This document shows positions 4,407 through 25,093 of a stretch of 31,788 nt of DNA, piece after piece. Position numbers and translations under genes: made by a program. Positions within the stretch are counted from its first letter, which is position 1, and every line of letters starts with the position of its first letter. Source of the DNA: a virus; the IMG/VR virus record IMGVR_UViG_3300037587_000706, positions 1 through 31,788 of that record. One strand, written 5' to 3'. The notes below the pieces were generated by a model that had not been told where the DNA came from, did no database searches, and saw nothing but the letters and a program-made list of their open reading frames with translations.

Positions 4407-6101
4407 ATGATCCCTAGCCTTGTCAAGAAAAAATTCACCACGGATGAGATCCGTGCCCACAAACGCGAGGGTTTCAAGTGGTGGATGAAACAGGCGAAAC
4501 GGCATTACAACGAGCCTGAGTGTGAACGCCTCTGCCGGGCACGAGCCTACGCCTCTCCAGACGGCTTTTTGCCGTTTTGCCGGGACATCATCGGGTACAA
4601 AGACCTTGTAAACCACTTCCACAAGGGCATCTGCACTCACGTTACCAACCCCAAACACCGCTACAAAATGTTGCAGGCGTGTCGCGGTAGCTTCAAATCC
4701 TGCATCGCCACGATTGCGTACTCGACCTGGCTGATTGGCCGTGAGTACACCCTCTACGACCGCTGCAATATCCGCATCCTCATTGGTAGCGAAGTGTTAC
4801 AGCTCACCGGCACATTTATGCGAGCAATCCGTCAGATTCTCGAATGGAATGAGGACTACAAGGAATTGTTTGGCGACCACAAGGGCGCTGAACACCGCAA
4901 GAGCACCGGGCGTGTTTGGAGCGACACGGCTATCATCTCCAGATACAGGACACTCCCTTACCTGAAAGAACCGACTGTAAGCGCAATCGCGCTCGGTGCG
5001 CCTCGTGCGGGAAACCACTACGATGTCATTATTGCCGACGATCTGGAAACGGAACGTGCAAGTGCAAGCCGCGATATGATCGACAAGTGTTGGATATTCT
5101 ACAAACTCCTGCACGCCCTGCTGGAACCTCGGCTTGCTGATTACGTTATTCGTGTGTTGCCACGTCCCGAAATGTCGCTGGTGTCAACTCGATGGCACCA
5201 CCAGGACATCTACGCTAGAATCATAGAGGACAACGAAGAAGAAGTTTTACTGGATGAACAATATGCAATTTTGATTAAACCGGCGCGCATGAAGGACGGC
5301 ACGCTGACATTTCCCGAACGGTTTGATGAAGATGAACTTGCGCACAAAAAGAGAAAACTTGGCCCGTATATTTTTGCCTGCCAATTTTTGATGGACCCAA
5401 CGCCCTCGGAGGACCGCACATTCAAGAAATCGTGGTTCAAGTTTGCGACACCGCAACACTACAACCAGCCGAATATGCTCTCTTACCTGAGTACCGATTT
5501 TGCATTTACGGAGTACAGCCGAATTGCTCGTGGCGAAGTTCGTAACCCCGATTTCACAGTGATCTTTGTGTGCATGATTGACGAGGCGGGGAATATCATA
5601 TTCCGTGACTGGCAACGTGGCCGCTGGAGTAAACGCGAAGCCATCGAACGAACCTACGATATGTATAAGAACAACGGGTGCGCGAAAGCGGCGTTTCAGA
5701 AGTTTGACCGCATCCAGATCGAGGATGTTCTGGAATCGGTTGGGCACGAACGCAACGAACGAATGAATTACGACTGGATCATCTATCCGGGACGTGAATC
5801 CAAGGAGCAACGTATTGAAACTACGTTGCAGCCGTTCTTTTCAGGCGGCAAAGTATATTTGATGCCTGGCATGGAGTGGTTTCAGGATGAACTGCTCGAT
5901 TTTCCGCGCTCAAACTATCTCGATGGCTGTGATACGTTGTGCAACATCGTGAAAATCTCCAATCCGACACACAAAACCATGATGCCGGAACACACGAATC
6001 CGGTAAAAGAGCACATTGATGCGTTGAAACGTGGTGTGCTCAAGGGGCTTGACGGCAAGGTGTATCCGCAAAAAAAGAGTGTCTGGAGAATATTTGATTG
6101 A
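4407..6101 (+). CDS. terL: Phage terminase large subunit
   Basis: This 564-residue protein has the two-domain plan of packaging motors. The N-terminal ATPase shows a divergent Walker A, ACRGSFKSC (residues 91-99), and a Walker B ending in DDLE (YDVIIADD, 205-212). A coupling-motif region, STRWHHQD, follows at about 260-267. The C-terminal RNase-H-like nuclease shows STDFAF (D364) and a late acidic pair near GCDTL (about D509). It should drive ATP-dependent DNA translocation through the portal and cut concatemers. The start ATG 4407 has only a distant GGAG. The gene stands apart from the main virion operon, which has its own promoter at 6224. Confidence 0.93.
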   Translation: MIPSLVKKKFTTDEIRAHKREGFKWWMKQAKRHYNEPECERLCRARAYASPDGFLPFCRDIIGYKDLVNHFHKGICTHVTNPKHRYKMLQACRGSFKSCIATIAYSTWLIGREYTLYDRCNIRILIGSEVLQLTGTFMRAIRQILEWNEDYKELFGDHKGAEHRKSTGRVWSDTAIISRYRTLPYLKEPTVSAIALGAPRAGNHYDVIIADDLETERASASRDMIDKCWIFYKLLHALLEPRLADYVIRVLPRPEMSLVSTRWHHQDIYARIIEDNEEEVLLDEQYAILIKPARMKDGTLTFPERFDEDELAHKKRKLGPYIFACQFLMDPTPSEDRTFKKSWFKFATPQHYNQPNMLSYLSTDFAFTEYSRIARGEVRNPDFTVIFVCMIDEAGNIIFRDWQRGRWSKREAIERTYDMYKNNGCAKAAFQKFDRIQIEDVLESVGHERNERMNYDWIIYPGRESKEQRIETTLQPFFSGGKVYLMPGMEWFQDELLDFPRSNYLDGCDTLCNIVKISNPTHKTMMPEHTNPVKEHIDALKRGVLKGLDGKVYPQKKSVWRIFD

Positions 6102-7308: not shown

Positions 7309-9060
7309 ATGAACGTGGCGAAATCAGACGTGAACACATCCGAGGCGCAGAAGAAGCTCACCAAGTCGCTCAACATACTTTACGGGAAAGCCAAGAAGTA
7401 TCGTGAGGGTGAAGTAAAGAGCGACTGGAAGAACTCGCTGGAATGGTTTAAGGGCAACCAGTCACTTGCCAGCCCCGCGCAATCGTTGCCAACTGCCATA
7501 TCCGGCCCGCCGACCGAAGCCGATTCCCAAACGAACCTCATATTTTCAGCCCTTATGACGATTGTGCCGTTTCTGGCGAATCGTTCCCCCAATGTTGTGC
7601 TCAAACCAATTGTTTCGACGCTGGACCGCCACGCATCGGAGATTTCGGAGTGCATCAACCGTGTATTCCATCGCAACGATGTCATTGATCGCCAGGGTGA
7701 GATGGTCACAAACGGCCTGCTCTTTGGTAAGGGGTACTGGAAAACGACATGGAATGACGATCTCAACATGGGCAAAGGTGACATTGAGATCCGTACTCGT
7801 GACACACGCTACATATTTCTGGAACCGGGTAAGATGACGGTGAAGGAATCAAACTACCTTTTCGATTCCTCGCGTGTAGACAAGCTCACGATGTACCGCA
7901 TGTACCCCGACAAGATCGCCCAAATCAACAGCGCATTTATGAAGGATGAGAGTCATGAATCGCGTGGCGGGGAATTTGGCGAATCGTCAGGTGTTGGGTA
8001 TCACGCCGCTGCGCCGGGCGAAGCGGCATTGACAACGAGTGAAGCGTACATGGTTGAAAGCACGCAACTGGAACACGAGAGCAAGGAACACGTTGATCTC
8101 GTTGAAGTGTGGTTTCACGACGAACGCATGGTTGATGTTACCGAAAACCTCGTTGAATACGGGGAAGTCAAAAAAGTACGCACCGGAGAACAAGAAGCCA
8201 TGTACCCAAATGGTCGGTTGGTTGTGTTCTCGGGTGACGTGATTTTTGAGGATCGACCGAACCCATTCCCGCGTTTTCCGTATGTTGAGTTTGAGAACTA
8301 CTTCGTTCCGGGTGAGCCGTACTCGATGACGGAAGTGAAACAGTTGCTCAATCTACAATTGCAATACAATGTGCGTAGCAATCAGTTGATGGATGCGATT
8401 GCACACGGGATACATCGTCTCACTTATTACGACTCGACTTCGGGGTTGAGGCCGGATGAGATCACAAATGAGCCGGGGCAGTTTGTGCCTGTTAGCAACA
8501 TTGGAGGAATCAAGGAAGCAGACCCACCGGGAGTGCCGAGTGCGGCGTTTGTGTCGTTGCAGGCAATCAAGCAGGACTTTGACCGTATCAGCGGCATCGA
8601 AGAAGTTGTTCGTGGCTCCTCGCCGGGTGATGTGCGCAGCGGCTATGCAATTGAGCAACTACAGGAGAGTGCGGCAAACCGCATGAAACTGAAAACCAGA
8701 AGCCTCGAAGCTGCAATCCGCGAGGAGTCACGACTCATTACCGAATTCATCGCAATATTTTATGAGAAGGGTGTCCACTATCACGATGACACGGATCTTC
8801 AGGGTGTGAAACCGGAAGGGTTTGAGTACCACGTCAAAGCAGGCATCAACCTGCCGCGCTCGAGTACCAGTGAGCAGCAACATGCGCAATGGATGTTTGC
8901 AAACAACATTGTTGATGAGAAGTACATTATTGAGAACTCGAATATTGCGAACAAACAGGAATTGCTGGATCGAATGAAGCCGATTTGGGAAGCAATGAAA
9001 CAACAGCAAATGGGAGTTGACCCTAATGTGACTCCGATGCCTCAAACGGGAGGAGCATAA
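7309..9060 (+). CDS. Portal protein
   Basis: This 583-residue protein lies after the terminase and before scaffold- and coat-like genes, the usual portal position, and its size fits the family. Segments typical of portals include a Q.NLIFSALMTIVPFLANRSP helix early on (about residues 70-95), a central charged region, the VEFENYFVPGEPYSMTEVKQLLNLQLQYNVRSNQLMD stretch, and SRLITEFIAIFYEKG toward the C-terminus. It should form the dodecameric DNA channel at one capsid vertex and dock the terminase. ATG 7309 is only three bases after GAGGT; GTG 7315 has better spacing and may be the true start. The fold-level assignment is inferred from context and composition. Confidence 0.8.
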   Translation: MNVAKSDVNTSEAQKKLTKSLNILYGKAKKYREGEVKSDWKNSLEWFKGNQSLASPAQSLPTAISGPPTEADSQTNLIFSALMTIVPFLANRSPNVVLKPIVSTLDRHASEISECINRVFHRNDVIDRQGEMVTNGLLFGKGYWKTTWNDDLNMGKGDIEIRTRDTRYIFLEPGKMTVKESNYLFDSSRVDKLTMYRMYPDKIAQINSAFMKDESHESRGGEFGESSGVGYHAAAPGEAALTTSEAYMVESTQLEHESKEHVDLVEVWFHDERMVDVTENLVEYGEVKKVRTGEQEAMYPNGRLVVFSGDVIFEDRPNPFPRFPYVEFENYFVPGEPYSMTEVKQLLNLQLQYNVRSNQLMDAIAHGIHRLTYYDSTSGLRPDEITNEPGQFVPVSNIGGIKEADPPGVPSAAFVSLQAIKQDFDRISGIEEVVRGSSPGDVRSGYAIEQLQESAANRMKLKTRSLEAAIREESRLITEFIAIFYEKGVHYHDDTDLQGVKPEGFEYHVKAGINLPRSSTSEQQHAQWMFANNIVDEKYIIENSNIANKQELLDRMKPIWEAMKQQQMGVDPNVTPMPQTGGA

Positions 9061-10271: not shown

Positions 10272-11243
10272 ATGGCCTTAACATACGATCAGATTACAGC
10301 TATTACGAATGAGCTGTATCTGCCGATGTTTCCGCAGTTGTTTGCGGATCGTAATATCCTCCAGAAACGACTTCACGCCAAGGGAACAAAACCCCAGGGC
10401 GGCGAACAGATCAAGCAGCATGTGTTCTATCAGCAGAGTAAGGGCGGGTTCTACGCAGAGTATGACACGTTCGACATCTCCGCTGAAGATCAGATCACGG
10501 CTGCGTTCTGGCCGTGGAAGTATTTGGAGGTACCCATCACGTTGTCTCGTGCGGATGTACTCCGTAACGCAGGCGCTCCTGCTGTCAAATCATTGATGGA
10601 TGCGAAAATGAAGGGTGCGGCAATTCGCGCATCTCAGCTTCTTGCAACGTCGATGTTTTCCCTTACGGGAGTTGACAGTTCACTCGGACTCAACAGTCTC
10701 GACAATATGTGTACGACAAATTCCGAGCAGTTGAGTACGGGCACCGCAGTATACGGGGGTATTGATCGTTCAACGCCGTATACGTGGTGGGATGGCAACA
10801 CGCTAGATCCCGGCGATATTGATATTGATTACGCGGTGCTTTCGGATGCGGAAGCACTGGTACTCGATGGCGATATTCGCCCGACAATCTGGATGCTGGG
10901 GCCGAACTCATTCAATTCGTACATGAAGGCGGAACAAGCGGATCAGCGATACATGAAACAGTCGGATATGGACACCGGGTTCGTTACGGCTCAGTTCAAT
11001 GGTCGTGTGATTGCTCAGGATCGCTACGTGTCAGATCCGGCAACGGGAACGTCGGCAAGCCGTGCTTATGGGCTCAATGAGGAGTTCCTTGACATGGTGA
11101 CACACGCCAACGAGAACATGCGTCTTGAGCCGTTTGCGAAACCAGTGGATCAGGCCGTAATCGTTGGTCACATCATGTGGGCTGGCAACCTGGTGTCCTG
11201 TGATCCAAGCCGCCATGTTGTCATTCACGACCAAAGACCATAA
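10272..11243 (+). CDS. Major capsid protein
   Basis: The 323-residue product follows the scaffold-like gene with a strong AGGAG site. It starts MALTYDQITAITNELYLPMF and contains segments typical of HK97-fold coats: a glycine-rich early loop (QSKGGFYAEYDTF), a long spine-helix candidate (RADVLRNAGAPAVKSLMDAKMKGAAIRASQLLATSMFSL), a mid-domain (WMLGPNSFNSYMKAEQADQRY) and a C-terminal strand-rich end (VIVGHIMWAGNLV). It would form the capsid shell. The assignment rests on position, length and composition rather than a search. Confidence 0.8.
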   Translation: MALTYDQITAITNELYLPMFPQLFADRNILQKRLHAKGTKPQGGEQIKQHVFYQQSKGGFYAEYDTFDISAEDQITAAFWPWKYLEVPITLSRADVLRNAGAPAVKSLMDAKMKGAAIRASQLLATSMFSLTGVDSSLGLNSLDNMCTTNSEQLSTGTAVYGGIDRSTPYTWWDGNTLDPGDIDIDYAVLSDAEALVLDGDIRPTIWMLGPNSFNSYMKAEQADQRYMKQSDMDTGFVTAQFNGRVIAQDRYVSDPATGTSASRAYGLNEEFLDMVTHANENMRLEPFAKPVDQAVIVGHIMWAGNLVSCDPSRHVVIHDQRP

Positions 11244-11257
11244 GGGAGGTAGGAATA

Positions 11258-11725
11258 ATGTCAATTCAAGCGTATAAAACAGCGATTACCATTACTTCTG
11301 CCACTCTTGCGGATCTCGGGACAGGCCTAACAACGGGGCACGAACGGACTGAGCCAGATGGAAGGATGTACGTGTTGCTCTTTTGTGGAGAAGCGACTCC
11401 AGATGGCATGGTTGTCTGTGTTGACGAAACAGAAACAACGGCAACTGTTATCCATTCCGAGCTTTGTTTGGATGGCACCACTAAGATGCCCGCAGGTGTG
11501 AACAACACCGGGGCTCCGATCACCGACAACCACTTCTGGTGGGCGCTAAAACGCGGTCTTGGGTATGGTATCACAGCAACAACCGACACGAAGGGGTTGG
11601 CTGTCACCCAAGCCGCATTAGGCGAGGTCACAACTGCCACACTCGGCACAGATTCGGTTTCTGGTATTTTACTGGAAACGGGTGTCGATTCGACGCAGAA
11701 GGCTGTCTACTGGACAATTCCGTAG
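11258..11725 (+). CDS. Capsid decoration-like protein, copy 1
   Basis: This 155-residue, beta-rich, Thr/Ala-rich protein immediately follows the coat gene with GGGAGG upstream. Its opening, MSIQAYKTAITITSATLADLGTGLTTGHERTEPDGRMYVLL, is clearly related to that of the next protein (MSIKSYRTAVTEQSATARDLGTIGERREEEDGKVYILV). The genes are thus tandem paralogs, although the rest has diverged. Position and fold character suggest a capsid-stabilising or head-decoration role; I do not recognise a named family. Confidence 0.65.
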   Translation: MSIQAYKTAITITSATLADLGTGLTTGHERTEPDGRMYVLLFCGEATPDGMVVCVDETETTATVIHSELCLDGTTKMPAGVNNTGAPITDNHFWWALKRGLGYGITATTDTKGLAVTQAALGEVTTATLGTDSVSGILLETGVDSTQKAVYWTIP

Positions 11726-11774: not shown

Positions 11775-12242
11775 ATGTCGATCAAATCGTATAGAACTGC
11801 GGTGACGGAACAATCTGCAACCGCCCGTGACCTTGGAACAATTGGAGAACGCCGCGAGGAAGAAGATGGCAAGGTTTACATTCTTGTTAAGGCAGGCGAG
11901 CAAATTAATGCGTTTATGTGCGTTGAGGTGTCGGCATACGATTCCGCAACGAACGAAATCACCGTAGCAAAGGCTTCGGCAGCATTGCAAGTGGCGGGTG
12001 TAAACCCTTTGGGAGTTGTATCAGTTGTGTCTGGTAACTATTTCTGGATGCAGGTTGGAGGAGTTGTTACTTGTTATGCTAACGCAACCACAACAGCAGT
12101 AACCCTTGGTAGCCCCGTAATACAGAAAACGACAGACGGATGGATTGAGGATTATGGGGCTGCTGATGTTACCGGGCCTATCGGGGTTGCTCTTGGTGCG
12201 GCGACTAGCGGACCAGTACAAATTCTTTTGCAACTAGGATAG
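11775..12242 (+). CDS. Capsid decoration-like protein, copy 2
   Basis: The ATG at 11775 has AAAGGAG just upstream; the frame's earlier in-frame start would cross the hairpin and the preceding gene. The 155-residue product is beta-rich and Val/Thr/Ala-rich, and its N-terminus is paralogous to the preceding protein. The C-terminal half (VVTCYANATTTAVTLGSPVIQ) looks strand-rich. A capsid-decoration or virion-accessory role is inferred. Confidence 0.65.
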   Translation: MSIKSYRTAVTEQSATARDLGTIGERREEEDGKVYILVKAGEQINAFMCVEVSAYDSATNEITVAKASAALQVAGVNPLGVVSVVSGNYFWMQVGGVVTCYANATTTAVTLGSPVIQKTTDGWIEDYGAADVTGPIGVALGAATSGPVQILLQLG

Positions 12243-13325: not shown

Positions 13326-16300
13326 GTGCTTAAAAACAAGATTCTTCTTTGGGCTGTTTGGGGGCTGATCTTGGCTGCTGCCGTACAGACTCGCAACAGC
13401 GGAGCGAACGGCGCAGGGTTCACTTCGGCTGTCAACACGCCAAGTGGACTGGCGGAGGGCGATCTTGTCGTCTGCTTTTTCACGTCCGATGGCAGCGGAT
13501 CGCATACGTGGCCGAGTGGAACCGACGATACGTTCAACTCGATTGTTGACCAGCTTGCTGACGGTAGTGCTGCGCGTCATTCCGTTGCATGGCATGAAGT
13601 AACAGCAACCGGCCCAGGCGCATCAATCACCGTAAATCTCGGCAATTCGACAAAGAGCACCTACTCCATTTACCGCATCACCGGGCACGAAGACCCGGAC
13701 ACGCAGCCTCCGCAAGTCTCGAACCCACAGATTGATACATCCACAGCACCGAACGCTACAATTCTAACGCCCACCGGAGGCTCGAAAGATTATCTCTGGC
13801 TCACCGGCTTCGGTATTGACGGTAGCAAGACAACGGGAAGCGTCACGCTCCCGGCAAACTACGGAACCAAGATCGGCGCTAACAACGGCGGCGGTTCTCC
13901 GTGTTCTACGTGGAGCGGCGAATTCGCAAATACTGCGTCGAGCGAGGACGCGGCGGCGTGGACACTTTCCGGTGGCGGCGTGGAATGGGTTGCCGAGACG
14001 GTTGCAGTGCATCCGGGGGTGGTGGCCACACCTGCAACCGACCTCTACGGCCTCAAAGTTGTTATCAAAGATGATGCCACGGATCTGTACGGACTCAAAA
14101 CACAGATCAAAGATGACGCCACTGATCTTTATGGGCTGAAGGCTGTTGTAACTTCCGTAACTGATGCAACCGATCTCTACGGACTCCGTGTAAAGCCGTT
14201 CGACCCGGACTTCCCGCTTGTAGAATCTTACGCTCTTTCCGTTGAATCAACGGACACCACCACTCATACAGTTACCGCACCAGATGGAACCGTCTCCGGG
14301 GATTTGCTGCTCCTTATATCGGGTTGCGATGGAAACGTACCCACAATTACCGAGCCAAGCGGATTTACGCAATTGGTCCACCAGACAACTGCCTCGGGAA
14401 CTCTAAACATTTCATATAAACAGGCTGGCGGTAGTGAGCCTGGAACCTATTCGGTGGGTACTAGCGCATCCGAAGAAAGTGCTCACATTATTTATCGGAT
14501 CAGTGGTGCGCAAGACCCATCGACGCAAGCCCCCGAAATATCATCCCTTGCTTTGAGCGTAGATGCGAACCCCGATCCGAACATTGTAACGCCAACCGGG
14601 GGAGCGAAGAATTACCTTTGGCTTGCTGCTTTTTGGAACGCAGATGATGCAACAGGAACCGCAAAGCCAACCGATTATTCTAACTTCCTGACTATCAATT
14701 CGGGGGGGGCTGATCCCACAAATATCGGTGCCGCAGAATATACTAATAACGCTGCCAGTGAGAATCCCGGCGCGTTCACCATTTCGGCGTCCAAACTATG
14801 GTCAGCTTTTACTATTGCGATACACCCTCTCAGCGAACAGTACGGCCTGAAGGCCCGGATAATTGATACTGCGTTTCCATTCGTGGAAACCACCGCCCTT
14901 TCGGTTGAGTCAACGGATACTGAAACCCACACGGTTGACAACGCGCCTGGAGTGGTATCAGGAGATTTGCTGATACTCGTTTCTTCTGTAGACTCAAATA
15001 CGAACATTGTCGAACCTGCCTCTTTTACAGAATTAGCCAGGGTTCAACAGGCAAATATTTCAATTAATGTTTCCTACAAGTGGGCAGGTGGTAGTGAACC
15101 CGGAACATATACGGTCACTACTACGTCGGAAGCCGAGGAATCGTCCCATATTATTTACAGAATAAGCGGCGCAGAGAACCCATCAACCCAAGCCCCGGAA
15201 CTTTCTTCGGTCAGCATTCAAACGACACAATTTCCCAACCCACAGCCTGTGACCCCTACTGGCGGGGCCAAGAACTATCTGTTTCTCGCTGTATTTGCGG
15301 GCAACGATGACGCAGTAGCCACGGCAGTACCCGCAGACTACTCAAATATGCAGACCATTAATTCCGGCGGATCGGAAGCCTGCGGGGTTGGTGGAGCAGA
15401 ACGCTATCTAAACGCATCAAGTGAGAACCCCGGCATATTTGTGATTCCCACCAGCCAGCAATGTATTTCTTATGCGATTGCAGTACACCCCGGCGTCCCG
15501 GTAACACCCGCTACGGATCTTTATGGACTCAAGGTTCAAATTAAGGATGATGCAACCGACCTCTATGGGCTGAAGGCTATCGTGAAGGACGACGCAACGG
15601 ATCTGTACGGGCTGAAAGCGCAGATCAAGGATGACGCCACTGACCTGTACGGACTCAAAGCACACATTCACATCAACGCAACTAACCTCTATGGCCTCAA
15701 GGCGCAGATCAAAGATGATGCCACAGACCTGTATGGACTGAAAGCTGTCGTTACAGCAGCAACATCTGCAACTGACTTATACGGCCTGAAAGCACAAATT
15801 AAGGATGACGCAACGGATCTGTACGGGCTGAAAGCGCAGATCAAGGATGACGCGACAGACCTCTACGGACTGAAAACGCAGATCAAGGATGACGCCACGG
15901 ATCTGTATGGACTCAAAGCACACATTCATATCGACACGACGGACTTGTACGGCCTCAAGACGCAGATCAAAGACGATGCAACAGACTTGTATGGACTCAG
16001 AACACAAATCAAAGACGATGCAACAGACTTGTATGGCCTCAAAGCTGTTGTCACAACAGTAACGTCTACCACTGATTTGTATGGACTCAAAATTGCCATC
16101 AAAGATGACGCCACGGATCTCTATGGACTCAAGGCTGTTATTATAGCGGCAACGGAGGCAACTGACCTCTACGGGCTGAAAGCGCAAATCAAGAAGGATG
16201 CCACTGATCTCTACGGCCTAAAGACACAAATCAAAGATGACGCGACGGATCTTTACGGACTCAAGACACAAATCAAAGACGACGCAACAGACCTGTACGG

Positions 16301-16703
16301 ACTTAAAACTGTGGTCAAAGATGATGCTACTGACCTGTACGGACTCAAGGTTCACATCCACATTAATGTAACGGATCTCTATGGTCTTAAAGTTCAGATC
16401 AAAGATGACGCAACCGACCTGTATGGATTAAGAGCAGTAATCAAAGATGATGCAACGGATCTTTACGGACTCAAGGTTCACATTTTCTTTACAGCCACCG
16501 ACCTGTATGGACTCAAGGCGATCATCAAAGATGACGGTACCGATCTTTATGGACTCAAAGCAATCATCAAAACGGATGCAACGGATTTGTATGGACTCAA
16601 GGCCAGGATCAGAACAGGCGTATGGTCTGAAAAAGTAATTGCGGCAACCTCAAGCACTGAAAAAGTAATTGCAGATGTTTCCTGGACGGAGAAGGTGATA
16701 TAG
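13326..16703 (+). CDS. Large modular protein with DLYGLK repeat array, virion adhesin-like
   Basis: A GTG at 13326 (AGGA just upstream) opens 1125 residues. Residues 1-21 form a basic, hydrophobic, signal-like segment (KNKILLWAVWGLILAAAV). Three homologous beta-rich domains follow, roughly 22-230, 300-500 and 515-720; they share SIYRITG/IIYRISG, TPTGG.K.YL.L and an ending (V/I)A(V/I)HP. After domain 1 come four copies of a 14-residue unit, and after domain 2 a degenerate QYGLK copy. After domain 3 there is an array of 26 units of DLYGLK..IKDDAT (731-1098). Three EKVI motifs end the protein. The plan fits a receptor-binding or capsid-surface fibre, but I recognise no family. Its place between capsid and adaptor genes is unusual for a tail fibre. 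Confidence 0.7.
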   Translation: MLKNKILLWAVWGLILAAAVQTRNSGANGAGFTSAVNTPSGLAEGDLVVCFFTSDGSGSHTWPSGTDDTFNSIVDQLADGSAARHSVAWHEVTATGPGASITVNLGNSTKSTYSIYRITGHEDPDTQPPQVSNPQIDTSTAPNATILTPTGGSKDYLWLTGFGIDGSKTTGSVTLPANYGTKIGANNGGGSPCSTWSGEFANTASSEDAAAWTLSGGGVEWVAETVAVHPGVVATPATDLYGLKVVIKDDATDLYGLKTQIKDDATDLYGLKAVVTSVTDATDLYGLRVKPFDPDFPLVESYALSVESTDTTTHTVTAPDGTVSGDLLLLISGCDGNVPTITEPSGFTQLVHQTTASGTLNISYKQAGGSEPGTYSVGTSASEESAHIIYRISGAQDPSTQAPEISSLALSVDANPDPNIVTPTGGAKNYLWLAAFWNADDATGTAKPTDYSNFLTINSGGADPTNIGAAEYTNNAASENPGAFTISASKLWSAFTIAIHPLSEQYGLKARIIDTAFPFVETTALSVESTDTETHTVDNAPGVVSGDLLILVSSVDSNTNIVEPASFTELARVQQANISINVSYKWAGGSEPGTYTVTTTSEAEESSHIIYRISGAENPSTQAPELSSVSIQTTQFPNPQPVTPTGGAKNYLFLAVFAGNDDAVATAVPADYSNMQTINSGGSEACGVGGAERYLNASSENPGIFVIPTSQQCISYAIAVHPGVPVTPATDLYGLKVQIKDDATDLYGLKAIVKDDATDLYGLKAQIKDDATDLYGLKAHIHINATNLYGLKAQIKDDATDLYGLKAVVTAATSATDLYGLKAQIKDDATDLYGLKAQIKDDATDLYGLKTQIKDDATDLYGLKAHIHIDTTDLYGLKTQIKDDATDLYGLRTQIKDDATDLYGLKAVVTTVTSTTDLYGLKIAIKDDATDLYGLKAVIIAATEATDLYGLKAQIKKDATDLYGLKTQIKDDATDLYGLKTQIKDDATDLYGLKTVVKDDATDLYGLKVHIHINVTDLYGLKVQIKDDATDLYGLRAVIKDDATDLYGLKVHIFFTATDLYGLKAIIKDDGTDLYGLKAIIKTDATDLYGLKARIRTGVWSEKVIAATSSTEKVIADVSWTEKVI
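14040..14195 (+). repeat. First block of DLYGLK-coding repeats
   Basis: Four consecutive units encode DLYGLK or DLYGLR followed by an 8- to 10-residue linker (residues 239-290 of the 1125-residue protein). The third unit is the 16-residue variant (VVTSVTDAT linker). The block directly follows the first beta-rich domain. Confidence 0.85.
15516..16619 (+). repeat. Main array: 26 DLYGLK-coding repeats, 42-bp period
   Basis: I count 26 units. The commonest encodes DLYGLKAQIKDDAT (42 bp). Variants have an IHIN/IHID linker (same length) or VVT..T..T and IIAATEAT linkers (48 bp). One unit starts NLYGLK and two end DLYGLR. Codons for the invariant residues vary widely from unit to unit, while some blocks are identical over tens of bases (for example 15591-15637 and 15807-15853). 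Confidence 0.92.
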
Positions 16704-16706
16704 CTA

Positions 16707-17423
16707 ATGGATTACACAACAATGCAGGATCGCGTAAAACTCTGGCTCGGGCAAACCGACGCTACGAATACCTACTACACGTCAACCGAAGTCGAGGATC
16801 TTGTAAACGATGCCATCGAGGAGGTCGCACTCGAAACTGAGTGCCTGCTCACTTTTGCAACCATTACAACTACGGAAGGCATCGGACGATACGCATTGCC
16901 GTTGGACTTCTCGCAGATGCGTAATGCGTCGGTAAACAAAACAGCTACGCGCCGTTACGTGCTTGCACAATCGGATTTCGATGATTTTGAGATCAGCACT
17001 TCAGGAAACTATGTCCTTCAGGGGGAACCCGCGTATTTCAAGGTTGAGATTGGCGCAACAGGCACTTCGGCAACGAGAGCACCCGGCGACATCTGGCTCT
17101 ACCCGGTACCCGACAACAATGGTGGTAACGACTACACCTTGATACTCCACTATCTCCAGATACCGGATCGCTTGAGCACAGGAACCGATGTGAGCGAACT
17201 CCCGAGACAACTCCATCGAGCGGTGACATATTACGCCGCTGTGCTGTTGTCACGCAAAGCGTCGGATGACCAGAAGGCGCAGACACTCATGCAGCTTTAC
17301 ACACACGAGATTCAGCGGTATATGAACAGCAAGAATCAGCGTGAGATGCGTCGGTACGTTGCAAAAAATGTGTACCGATCAGGCGCATTTTGGGGAAAAT
17401 TCAAACCGCAGGGATGGCGGTAA
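16707..17423 (+). CDS. Head-tail adaptor / tail tube A-like protein
   Basis: The 238-residue product starts with a helical segment (MQDRVKLWLGQ...EVEDLVNDAIEEVALE) and has a beta-rich centre with GRYALPLDF and DIWLYPVPDNNG. A C-terminal helical part follows (LPRQLHRAVTYYAAVLL, then QREMRRYVAKNVY). This order matches the gatekeeper/adaptor proteins of podoviruses (T7 gp11-like) and gp6-like connectors. It should sit under the portal and join head to tail. Ribosome binding may use GGAGAAGGTG at the end of the previous gene. It is followed directly by the tail-tube-like gene. Confidence 0.7.
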   Translation: MDYTTMQDRVKLWLGQTDATNTYYTSTEVEDLVNDAIEEVALETECLLTFATITTTEGIGRYALPLDFSQMRNASVNKTATRRYVLAQSDFDDFEISTSGNYVLQGEPAYFKVEIGATGTSATRAPGDIWLYPVPDNNGGNDYTLILHYLQIPDRLSTGTDVSELPRQLHRAVTYYAAVLLSRKASDDQKAQTLMQLYTHEIQRYMNSKNQREMRRYVAKNVYRSGAFWGKFKPQGWR

Positions 17424-19562
17424 ATGGCAAATACATTTGTTGATCTCAAGGGTAAGAAGAAGTTCACCATCACCGATTTCACAGGTGGGCTTAATGAAAA
17501 CGCTCGTGTGTATGCGGTGAAACCCAATGAGCTTCAGGCGTGCTCCAATATGGAAATTCGCAAGATGGGTGCCCTAGTTGTGCGTGCAGGAACGGCGAAA
17601 TATGAACAAGCAGCAGTGAAAATTAACATACCCGCAACCGATCAGTTCTATTATGTGAATCGTGACGGAACACGCAAGATGGTGATGTTCGCCGGGAATA
17701 CGTCAGCAATTCCATCAGTGAAAACTGCGGTATACATTGATAACGATGCGGGGGTTTATACTTCATTGATAGAGATGGACACAGCGGACGGACACTGCCG
17801 GTTTACGCAGTACCGGGATACCTTGTTTTTTGGAACCGATGATGGCCCAACTACTGAGTCTTTATCCGGGTTTCGTTCATATAATAGTACGGGGGGGATA
17901 ATTCAAATCTATGTTGATATCATGGGCGAGATGGGGACAAGTACGCAGTTTACTGATGTTATGACGAACACAAAGACATCGACTGGCGGATTTCTGGAAC
18001 CGAAATATTATGCGTATCGCCTGTGTTGGGAAATCAGCCACGACAACGACTTTATGGGCGAGAGTTATCCGGTATGGTACAGCCTTGGTGTTGCGGAAGG
18101 GGCTATTGGAGAAGTTGCGCCTGATGTGTTGTTGGACCGCCGTTCCTCTTTTCAGCAGGATATAGATCACACATCAGGCAGCACGGAAACAAACATCGTT
18201 GAATTTAAGAAACCGGCTTCGACACCATCGGACTTCCCGACAACAGCAACTATCATTAACATCTATCGTTCCGGCCCTTACGACGCAAACGATGAATTTT
18301 TTCCACAGACCAGCGAGGAAGATCGTCGTTTCTTTTTGATCGGCTCAATAAGCGCCGATACATATAGTTCTGCGAGTGTAGGCACAGTATTGTTCACAGA
18401 TCGTGGTGAGATCCCATTGGGTGTTCAGATTCGCTACATCCCAACACACAAACCGCCTCGCCCACGTTTTCTTGCGGTACACAAGGATCGTCTGTGGTTC
18501 GGGTATGTGATGGAATTGCATCTGGGAAGCGGGGATAACGCACTCAAGGCGCATCGAATTTACGCTTCTGAATTCAGGGAGCCGTATGTGTTTCCGGCAG
18601 GTAGTTGGGTGGATGTGCAGCCCAACGAAGGCGAAGGAATCACCGGCATGGTGTCTTGGCGTAACAAAATTATGCTCGTGTTCAAAAACAATTCGACCTA
18701 CGCAATCGTTGGTGGTGACGATGTAGACTTTGCGGGGAACCCTGATATTTCGGTTGAGATCATTAGCGAGGACATCGGGTGTATTGCACCAAACAGTATT
18801 GTGCAGGCAGAGGGGCGCATCATGTGGCTCTCACACAGAGGCGTCTATTACTTTGATGGCACAATTCCACAGCCGCTCAAGAATGTGAATATCGAAGACA
18901 CATTACGTGATCTTGAAACCGGCACTGATTACGATTCGTCGATGGGGTACTTTTCGCTGGAACGGGAACTGTGGGTTGGTCATAGTACTGCTTCTTTTGG
19001 AGGAAGTATTCAGAAGTTCAATTTCGTTACCGGCGCATGGAGCAAACATACAAACCCGAGCACGGAATTTAACGTAGCTGTATCATCATTTGTTGAAAAA
19101 AATGCAAAGAATGTACGTCCCGAATTTTACATGGGCATCGACTCGAACCCTGCCGGGCTTGATGATTTAGGTGTTGTTCATAGAGGAGACACAGCTCGTT
19201 GGTTTGATGAATTTACAGGAGACACCAATATCCCCTGGTCTTTCAAAACGAAACAGTTCGATTTCAATACACCGTGGGCGTCAAAGAATGTGCGAGCAAT
19301 TGGGCTTGATTGCAACATACCAGATTCCACTGGAGTTACGGTACGGATCACATGCGATGATCGTCTCGACACGAATACCGATCCGGGCGGCGACTTCACA
19401 ATCGCAGAAGCCATTGTCGGACACAAACTCATTATGATGGACAACCGGATACGTGGCAAAAAAATCGGGTTCGAGATTTCAGGTACGCAAACAACAGGCC
19501 CAACTGAGTTCTACGCGCTGAATGTGTATTATGAAGAAGAAGAAGCGGTGATCGACGAGTAA
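17424..19562 (+). CDS. Tail tube B / tail nozzle-like protein
   Basis: The 712-residue product begins with a signature of podoviral tail-nozzle proteins: an FTGGLNENA turn, a .P.EL..C.N.EI...GAL..R.G segment (residues 20-58), then repeated beta-propeller-like strands. These include RFTQYRDTLFF, PRPRFLAVHKDRLWFGYV, WRNKIMLVFKNNSTYAI and WLSHRGVYYFDG. This is the T7 gp12 type of organisation. It should form the distal tube through which DNA leaves. It follows the adaptor directly and overlaps the next gene by one base (TAATG, 19560-19564). Confidence 0.75.
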   Translation: MANTFVDLKGKKKFTITDFTGGLNENARVYAVKPNELQACSNMEIRKMGALVVRAGTAKYEQAAVKINIPATDQFYYVNRDGTRKMVMFAGNTSAIPSVKTAVYIDNDAGVYTSLIEMDTADGHCRFTQYRDTLFFGTDDGPTTESLSGFRSYNSTGGIIQIYVDIMGEMGTSTQFTDVMTNTKTSTGGFLEPKYYAYRLCWEISHDNDFMGESYPVWYSLGVAEGAIGEVAPDVLLDRRSSFQQDIDHTSGSTETNIVEFKKPASTPSDFPTTATIINIYRSGPYDANDEFFPQTSEEDRRFFLIGSISADTYSSASVGTVLFTDRGEIPLGVQIRYIPTHKPPRPRFLAVHKDRLWFGYVMELHLGSGDNALKAHRIYASEFREPYVFPAGSWVDVQPNEGEGITGMVSWRNKIMLVFKNNSTYAIVGGDDVDFAGNPDISVEIISEDIGCIAPNSIVQAEGRIMWLSHRGVYYFDGTIPQPLKNVNIEDTLRDLETGTDYDSSMGYFSLERELWVGHSTASFGGSIQKFNFVTGAWSKHTNPSTEFNVAVSSFVEKNAKNVRPEFYMGIDSNPAGLDDLGVVHRGDTARWFDEFTGDTNIPWSFKTKQFDFNTPWASKNVRAIGLDCNIPDSTGVTVRITCDDRLDTNTDPGGDFTIAEAIVGHKLIMMDNRIRGKKIGFEISGTQTTGPTEFYALNVYYEEEEAVIDE

Positions 19563-24862: not shown

Positions 24863-25093
24863 ATGAAAAACCTAAATGGATGGGCCAAGGTGGTCGCTTT
24901 GATTGTCGCCATCGGGGTTCAATTGATGGTGTTGAGCAACAACAATGGCCGCAGAGATGAAGCCATCAGCAATCTCAAAGACGGGCAGAAAGAGATTAAG
25001 GACAAACTGGATGCTGCGATTACCGGCATTGAGCGTCGGGATGCTCGCATAGATGGACGAATCAACAGCCATATCGAGAAACATGGAAAGTGA
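24863..25093 (+). CDS. Small membrane protein with coiled-coil tail
   Basis: The 76-residue product has one transmembrane segment (VVALIVAIGVQLMVL, about residues 9-23). A charged helix follows (GRRDEAISNLKDGQKEIKDKLDAAITGIERRDARIDGRI) that could form a coiled coil. This plan is seen in XhlA-like and spanin-like phage membrane proteins. It opens the probable lysis block. AAGGG precedes the ATG. Its stop overlaps the next GTG start (GTGA, 25090-25093). Confidence 0.65.
   Translation: MKNLNGWAKVVALIVAIGVQLMVLSNNNGRRDEAISNLKDGQKEIKDKLDAAITGIERRDARIDGRINSHIEKHGK

Follow-up and report, generated by a model that had tools for sequence, protein, structure and literature searches.

Triple beta-spirals build viral attachment fibres, such as the adenovirus fibre shaft and reovirus sigma1, from short beta repeats similar in length to the unit described here; the consensus has hydrophobic residues at positions c, e, g, k and m and Gly or Pro at position j (PMC3150272). 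Among phages, a putative tail protein of Aeromonas Casjensviridae (BUCT551, vB_C4, AVP3, 13AC503A and others) carries a C-terminal array of period 14, and jelly-roll-like domains occur in minor tail proteins of Mycobacterium, Gordonia and Rhizobium phages. The window analysed here, which comprises all 31,788 bases of an IMG/VR virus record, contained one gene encoding three globular domains of the latter kind together with an array of 14-residue units.

Gene neighbourhood and organisation of the repeat gene

Genes in the window were arranged in the order terminase, P22-type portal, capsid, two decoration-like proteins, repeat gene and SU10-type adaptor, an order which suggests a short-tailed phage. 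The assignments were as follows:

4407–6101, + strand: terminase large subunit (phrog_38, E 4e-71)
7309–9060, + strand: P22-type portal protein (PF16510, E 9e-20)
10272–11243, + strand: major capsid protein (phrog_9953), kin to those of Myxococcus phage Mx8 and others
13326–16703, + strand: repeat gene, 1125 amino acids, GTG start (open reading frame)
16707–17423, + strand: SU10-type adaptor, directly downstream of the repeat gene (PF24175, E 3e-24)
17424–19562, + strand: neck/nozzle-type tail protein (weak matches to phrog_3287, 511 and 578)

The two decoration-like proteins, at 11258–11725 and about 11775–12242, looked paralogous (MSIQAYKTAITITSATLADLGTG and MSIKSYRTAVTEQSATARDLGTI). No close relatives were found in IMG/VR by way of the capsid and terminase proteins. 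In phages with related capsid proteins, only small genes were observed between the capsid gene and the neck genes, which makes the repeat gene look like cargo inserted there. The gene order, as well as the relatives of the globular domain, supported the proposal of an earlier note on this DNA that the product is a phage structural-type protein.

From the N-terminus, the repeat gene encoded a hydrophobic segment, domain 1, four units, domain 2, one unit, domain 3, 26 units and a C-terminal tail:

13326–13385, + strand: signal-peptide-like N-terminus MLKNKILLWAVWGLILAAA (sequence, hydropathy)
13383–14033, + strand: adhesin-type all-beta domain 1 (alignments A1/A2)
14040–14213, + strand: first repeat block, 4 units (pattern count)
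14214–14834, + strand: adhesin-type all-beta domain 2 (domain-copy alignment)
14835–14876, + strand: lone degenerate unit EQYGLKARIIDTAF (pattern count)
14877–15515, + strand: adhesin-type all-beta domain 3 (domain-copy alignment, AlphaFold pLDDT ~95, Foldseek)
15516–16625, + strand: main array, 26 consecutive DLYGLKxxIKDDAT units (pattern count)
16626–16703, + strand: C-terminal tail SEKVIAATSSTEKVIADVSWTEKVI, followed by the stop (sequence)

Over the whole open reading frame, the pattern [DEN][LQ]YGL[KR] gave a total of 31 units, and a near-fixed hexamer occurring 31 times in frame rules out a chance origin. The earlier note had described 26 copies of uniform length ending at 16619; the copy number held, whereas 3 of the 25 spacings in the main array were of 16 residues (the other 22 were of 14) and the end lay at 16625. 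Four further copies near 14040 and a degenerate one near 14840, also claimed there, were found at 14040–14213 and 14835. The first block held one 16-mer as well (unit 3), while its unit 4 continued into domain 2. All four 16-residue spacings belonged to units of the VVT..T..T type, with the two additional residues placed in the loop after I9; this loop thus tolerates two more residues. Across the main array's 22 pure 14-mers, L2, Y3, G4, L5 and T14 were invariant, D1 was present in 21 of 22, and K/R6 and I/V9 in 22 of 22. LYGL was without variation throughout the main array, in agreement with the near-invariance of DLYGLK noticed before, and the linker types distinguished at that time were recovered too, IHIN and VVT units replacing the D-D-x-x-D loop. 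Apolar and polar residues alternated from Y3 to I9. The C-terminal tail was a separate short repeat, in which EKVI occurred three times at 10-residue spacing.

Globular domains and their relatives

The three all-beta domains, about 215 amino acids each, separate the repeat blocks and were absent from the earlier note. They could be aligned with one another, and the greatest likeness was between copies 2 and 3 (57%). A PGVxxTPATDLYGLK junction was present after domains 1 and 3, which suggests that domain and repeat were duplicated as one piece.

Sequence-profile searches detected the domain at 13 further viral loci (30–42% identity), and the readable neighbourhoods of its homologues often included terminase, portal, scaffold or capsid genes. 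In L088 to L094 the domain was followed by SPGIDTLVLTGQAPTVS-type repeats and in L096 by GTPSIDELTASG repeats; different short repeats behind one domain are as would be expected of interchangeable spacers. Among the relatives whose sequence was read, none had the domain and the present repeat in one protein. In Rhizobium phage RHph_I3_18, the gene located between those of the capsid and the adaptor was considered and did not encode the window's domain. In another relative (L084, 3776–8751), three consecutive genes between the terminase and a putative portal had signal-peptide-like starts (MMKKLLLLLLLPVSLYAQ, MRKLFLLFAFLLAQPVWA and MGKARTAVLVLGCLLLSP), the middle one encoding the homologue of the window domain; it would be unusual for a cluster of virion genes to contain an exported module. 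Bacterial carriers were observed in 2 of 398 Pseudomonadota genomes, where secreted-type LamG proteins begin with the domain and are encoded next to prepilin-like genes.

In Foldseek searches of predicted viral structures (BFVD), the domain matched many phage proteins with probability 1.00, several of them annotated as minor tail proteins, e.g. A0A345MB68, A5YJY9 and A0A1C9EHB2, with Mycobacterium and Gordonia phages among the sources; the best matches spanned the domain plus the array, at low TM-score. Both parts were also covered in the alignments to A0A6J5RXD4 and A0A6J5NBU5. A structure search of the PDB returned no significant match to either domain or array.

Age, predicted structure and putative role of the array

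Amino-acid identity between the 14-mer units was about 0.78–0.79, while third codon positions agreed in 39%. For identical residues, synonymous codon identity was 0.44, compared with 0.38 expected from the codon usage of seven other genes of the phage and 0.43 from that of the repeat gene's own N-terminal part, and neighbouring units were no closer (0.40). Near-random synonymous codons together with about 79% amino-acid identity indicate that the array is old and that its units are maintained by selection on the protein. Recent slippage as its origin was rejected because synonymous identity was close to random expectation, and selection for codon scrambling because it was at or slightly above expectation, never below. 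The longest exact repeat in the array was 47 nt, as against 17–38 nt in 300 synonymous shuffles, and traces of older duplication persist. In six Aeromonas arrays with codons compared, synonymous identity was 0.53–0.83, reaching 0.88 between neighbours, which points to recent tandem duplication. An unvarying LYGL core set against synonymous codons close to random shows that an array of 26 units, unlike the recently expanding ones of Aeromonas phages, can endure without homogenisation.

AlphaFold, run on domain 3 plus the array with an 11-row alignment, gave pLDDT values of ~95 for the domain and ~65 for the array, in which a six-residue strand (KxxIKD) and then a three-residue strand (DLY) were regularly repeated. 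Eleven units alone, with related arrays, were predicted to be all beta (pLDDT 78, pTM 0.71), the array model being monomeric and of moderate confidence, with the caveat that AlphaFold can force beta order on repeats. The beta rather than disordered character implied by the earlier note is supported by these models.

We propose, with a probability of about 0.6, that the repeat gene encodes a modular stalked adhesin on the head or neck of a short-tailed phage (virion location, oligomeric state, stalk role and glycan binding all being putative). The protein is probably particle-bound. Its gene follows those of the capsid and decoration proteins and precedes that of the adaptor, which suggests a protein fixed to the head or neck, from which it would extend to glycans on the host surface or in the environment. 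The three jelly-roll-like domains, which belong to a type often found among minor tail proteins, would act as folded heads or as modules for binding. The 14-residue units would build a regular amphipathic beta-structure, that is, a stiff spacer placed between domains 1 and 2, minimal between domains 2 and 3 and extended into a long terminal stalk after domain 3. No ligand-binding residue was identified in the repeat protein.

The main point left unexplained by the adhesin reading is the signal-like N-terminus, since such a start is unusual in a virion protein of a tailed phage. It supports an alternative that we consider unlikely, namely that residues 1–20 function as a signal peptide and that the protein is exported to the periplasm or surface of the infected cell, outside the virion, with a role in, for example, exclusion of other phages or aggregation. 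The segment combines K residues with a hydrophobic core and an AAA motif, and its KD maximum (2.55) is second only to that of a small membrane protein at 24863; moreover, the L084 homologue has a clean signal-like start, as have both its neighbours, and the bacterial carriers of the domain are secreted-type proteins adjoining prepilin-like genes. However, most of the phage homologues read begin with MAFPVVQ or similar, without a signal sequence, and the genes sit in virion modules. The signal-like segment may even be absent if translation begins at a TTG near 13371, which would yield MAAAVQTRNSG, similar to the signal-free homologues.

Two other explanations concern the array rather than the N-terminus. 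That it is itself a ligand-binding beta-solenoid, contacting a glycan, metal or surface and serving as no spacer, is improbable. LYGL is very strongly conserved, and solenoid-type chains (GlmU, FapC, tapirin) topped the list when the array was compared with the PDB, but these matches had probability <0.1 and TM ~0.1. Of the beta-solenoid suggested in the earlier note, the beta character is supported by AlphaFold, a solenoid being one possible topology. No RTX or hexapeptide pattern was present, and the D-D-x-x-D loop, previously thought capable of binding metal, is replaced in IHIN and VVT units and unconserved in related arrays, which argues against that function. A calcium-binding RTX repeat, built on the nonapeptide GGxGxDxUx, was rejected given the period of 14, the lack of GG in the unit and the lack of a Pfam match above cut-off. 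Very improbable, and largely refuted by the codon pattern, is a low-complexity expansion, i.e. a product of replication slippage that is disordered or of incidental role. The array is tandem with traces of old duplication, and related Aeromonas arrays do expand recently, but synonymous sites between the window units are near random while LYGL is fixed, and the predicted structure is ordered beta.

Comparison with related arrays and known fibre repeats

Searches of Pfam, NCBIfam, PHROGs and PDB sequences gave no credible match to the array, and nothing on this repeat was found in the literature. Matches to phrog_35102 (E 2e-10), FtsL, Rad50 and others were dismissed as sums of many tiny stretches, and all Pfam and NCBIfam matches were under the curated cut-offs. 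The earlier note's statement that no known repeat family was recognised thus stands for these four collections, although arrays of 14-residue units that look related occur in tail proteins of Aeromonas phages and in a single metagenomic phage.

The unit matched nine records of Aeromonas phages in tblastn, a pair of which belong to a single phage, with E-values that are inflated, as antisense frames of Aeromonas arrays reach E ~1e-7. Matches to phiA034, BUCT552 and PhAER-6 were spurious, being antisense to the annotated tail gene; the sense strands of these phages carry PYNLR arrays. In the eight distinct arrays read, the tail protein ended in PYGLRPGVIADLT or PYNLRSTVQAELL arrays of 14–25 units, copy number varying among them. 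Like the window array, they are C-terminal with a period of 14, and the common register is Y-G/N-L-x-x-x-V/I (PYGLRPGVIADLT versus DLYGLKAQIKDDAT in the window), whereas the protein body is different, gpJ-like, and the arrays, unlike that of the window, are recently expanded. In Aeromonas phage AhMtk13b (L103, 910–5289), the C-terminal array drops out of the PYGL frame some 15 units along and is read from there as SDSPLRADRWVPAG repeats, much as though an indel had put the repeat DNA into another frame. The metagenomic phage, IMG/VR contig 3300032143_000038 (L012), has YGLQSQIIINKENA units in the gene after the tape measure. Its array has an equal register and is placed in the tail module; it differs in mixing 14 and 15 residues, with Q at the K position and I at position 11, and the contig ends inside the array gene.

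When the 14 positions were permuted consistently, scores between Aeromonas and window units gave p = 0.0025–0.035; profile comparison placed Y on Y in all cases (p 0.006–0.013), the second-best register being far lower. Apolar/polar alternation was common to the window, Aeromonas and L012 units, in differing degree. The likeness in register is real and could reflect convergence on one beta geometry or common descent. When 85,000 bacterial genomes and IMG/VR were scanned by pattern, an Aeromonas contig and L012 were the only relevant ones among the matches read; the others read were 21-base satellites (TVYGLRF), 7-residue arrays (GLRGDVS, GDCSSLR) and other unrelated repeats. Small proteins made of the 7-residue GLRGDVS or GDCSSLR repeats, unrelated to the array, were encoded by phage contigs L075, L077, L078, L080 and L100.

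A further suggestion, tentative and in our view rather doubtful, is that the YGL unit represents a new fibrous beta-repeat fold across attachment proteins of unrelated tailed phages, its carriers being a protein from the head module in a short-tailed phage and tail-tip proteins in long-tailed phages. If so, the few viral fibre motifs known would be joined by one more building block, and fibre design would gain a natural sequence of high regularity.

As for the globular part, the jelly-roll-like domains of phage minor tail proteins (Mycobacterium, Gordonia, Rhizobium) resembled the three window copies in fold, with Foldseek TM to target up to 0.79, but sequence identity was low, and the listed single-domain matches are not known with the repeat. 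An N-terminal domain in common with the window protein was also observed in two secreted, pilus-associated LamG proteins (L098 and L099; A2 profile, E 3e-10 and 7e-9), which by their gene context we take to be MshQ-like; these differ in being bacterial and LamG-bearing, and no 14-residue array was seen in them. The triple beta-spiral shares with the window unit a conserved hydrophobic pattern, but the unit fits only positions e, g and k (Y=e, L=g, I=k). Position j, unit position 8, was Q/H/I/V/A in 22 of 22 units, with Gly/Pro absent, and a hydrophobic residue was mostly lacking at m; the unit was therefore not assigned to this motif, the Aeromonas unit fitting the consensus better than that of the window. 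The window unit is absent from the catalogues, although viral fibres of repetitive build are, as a general design, well known.
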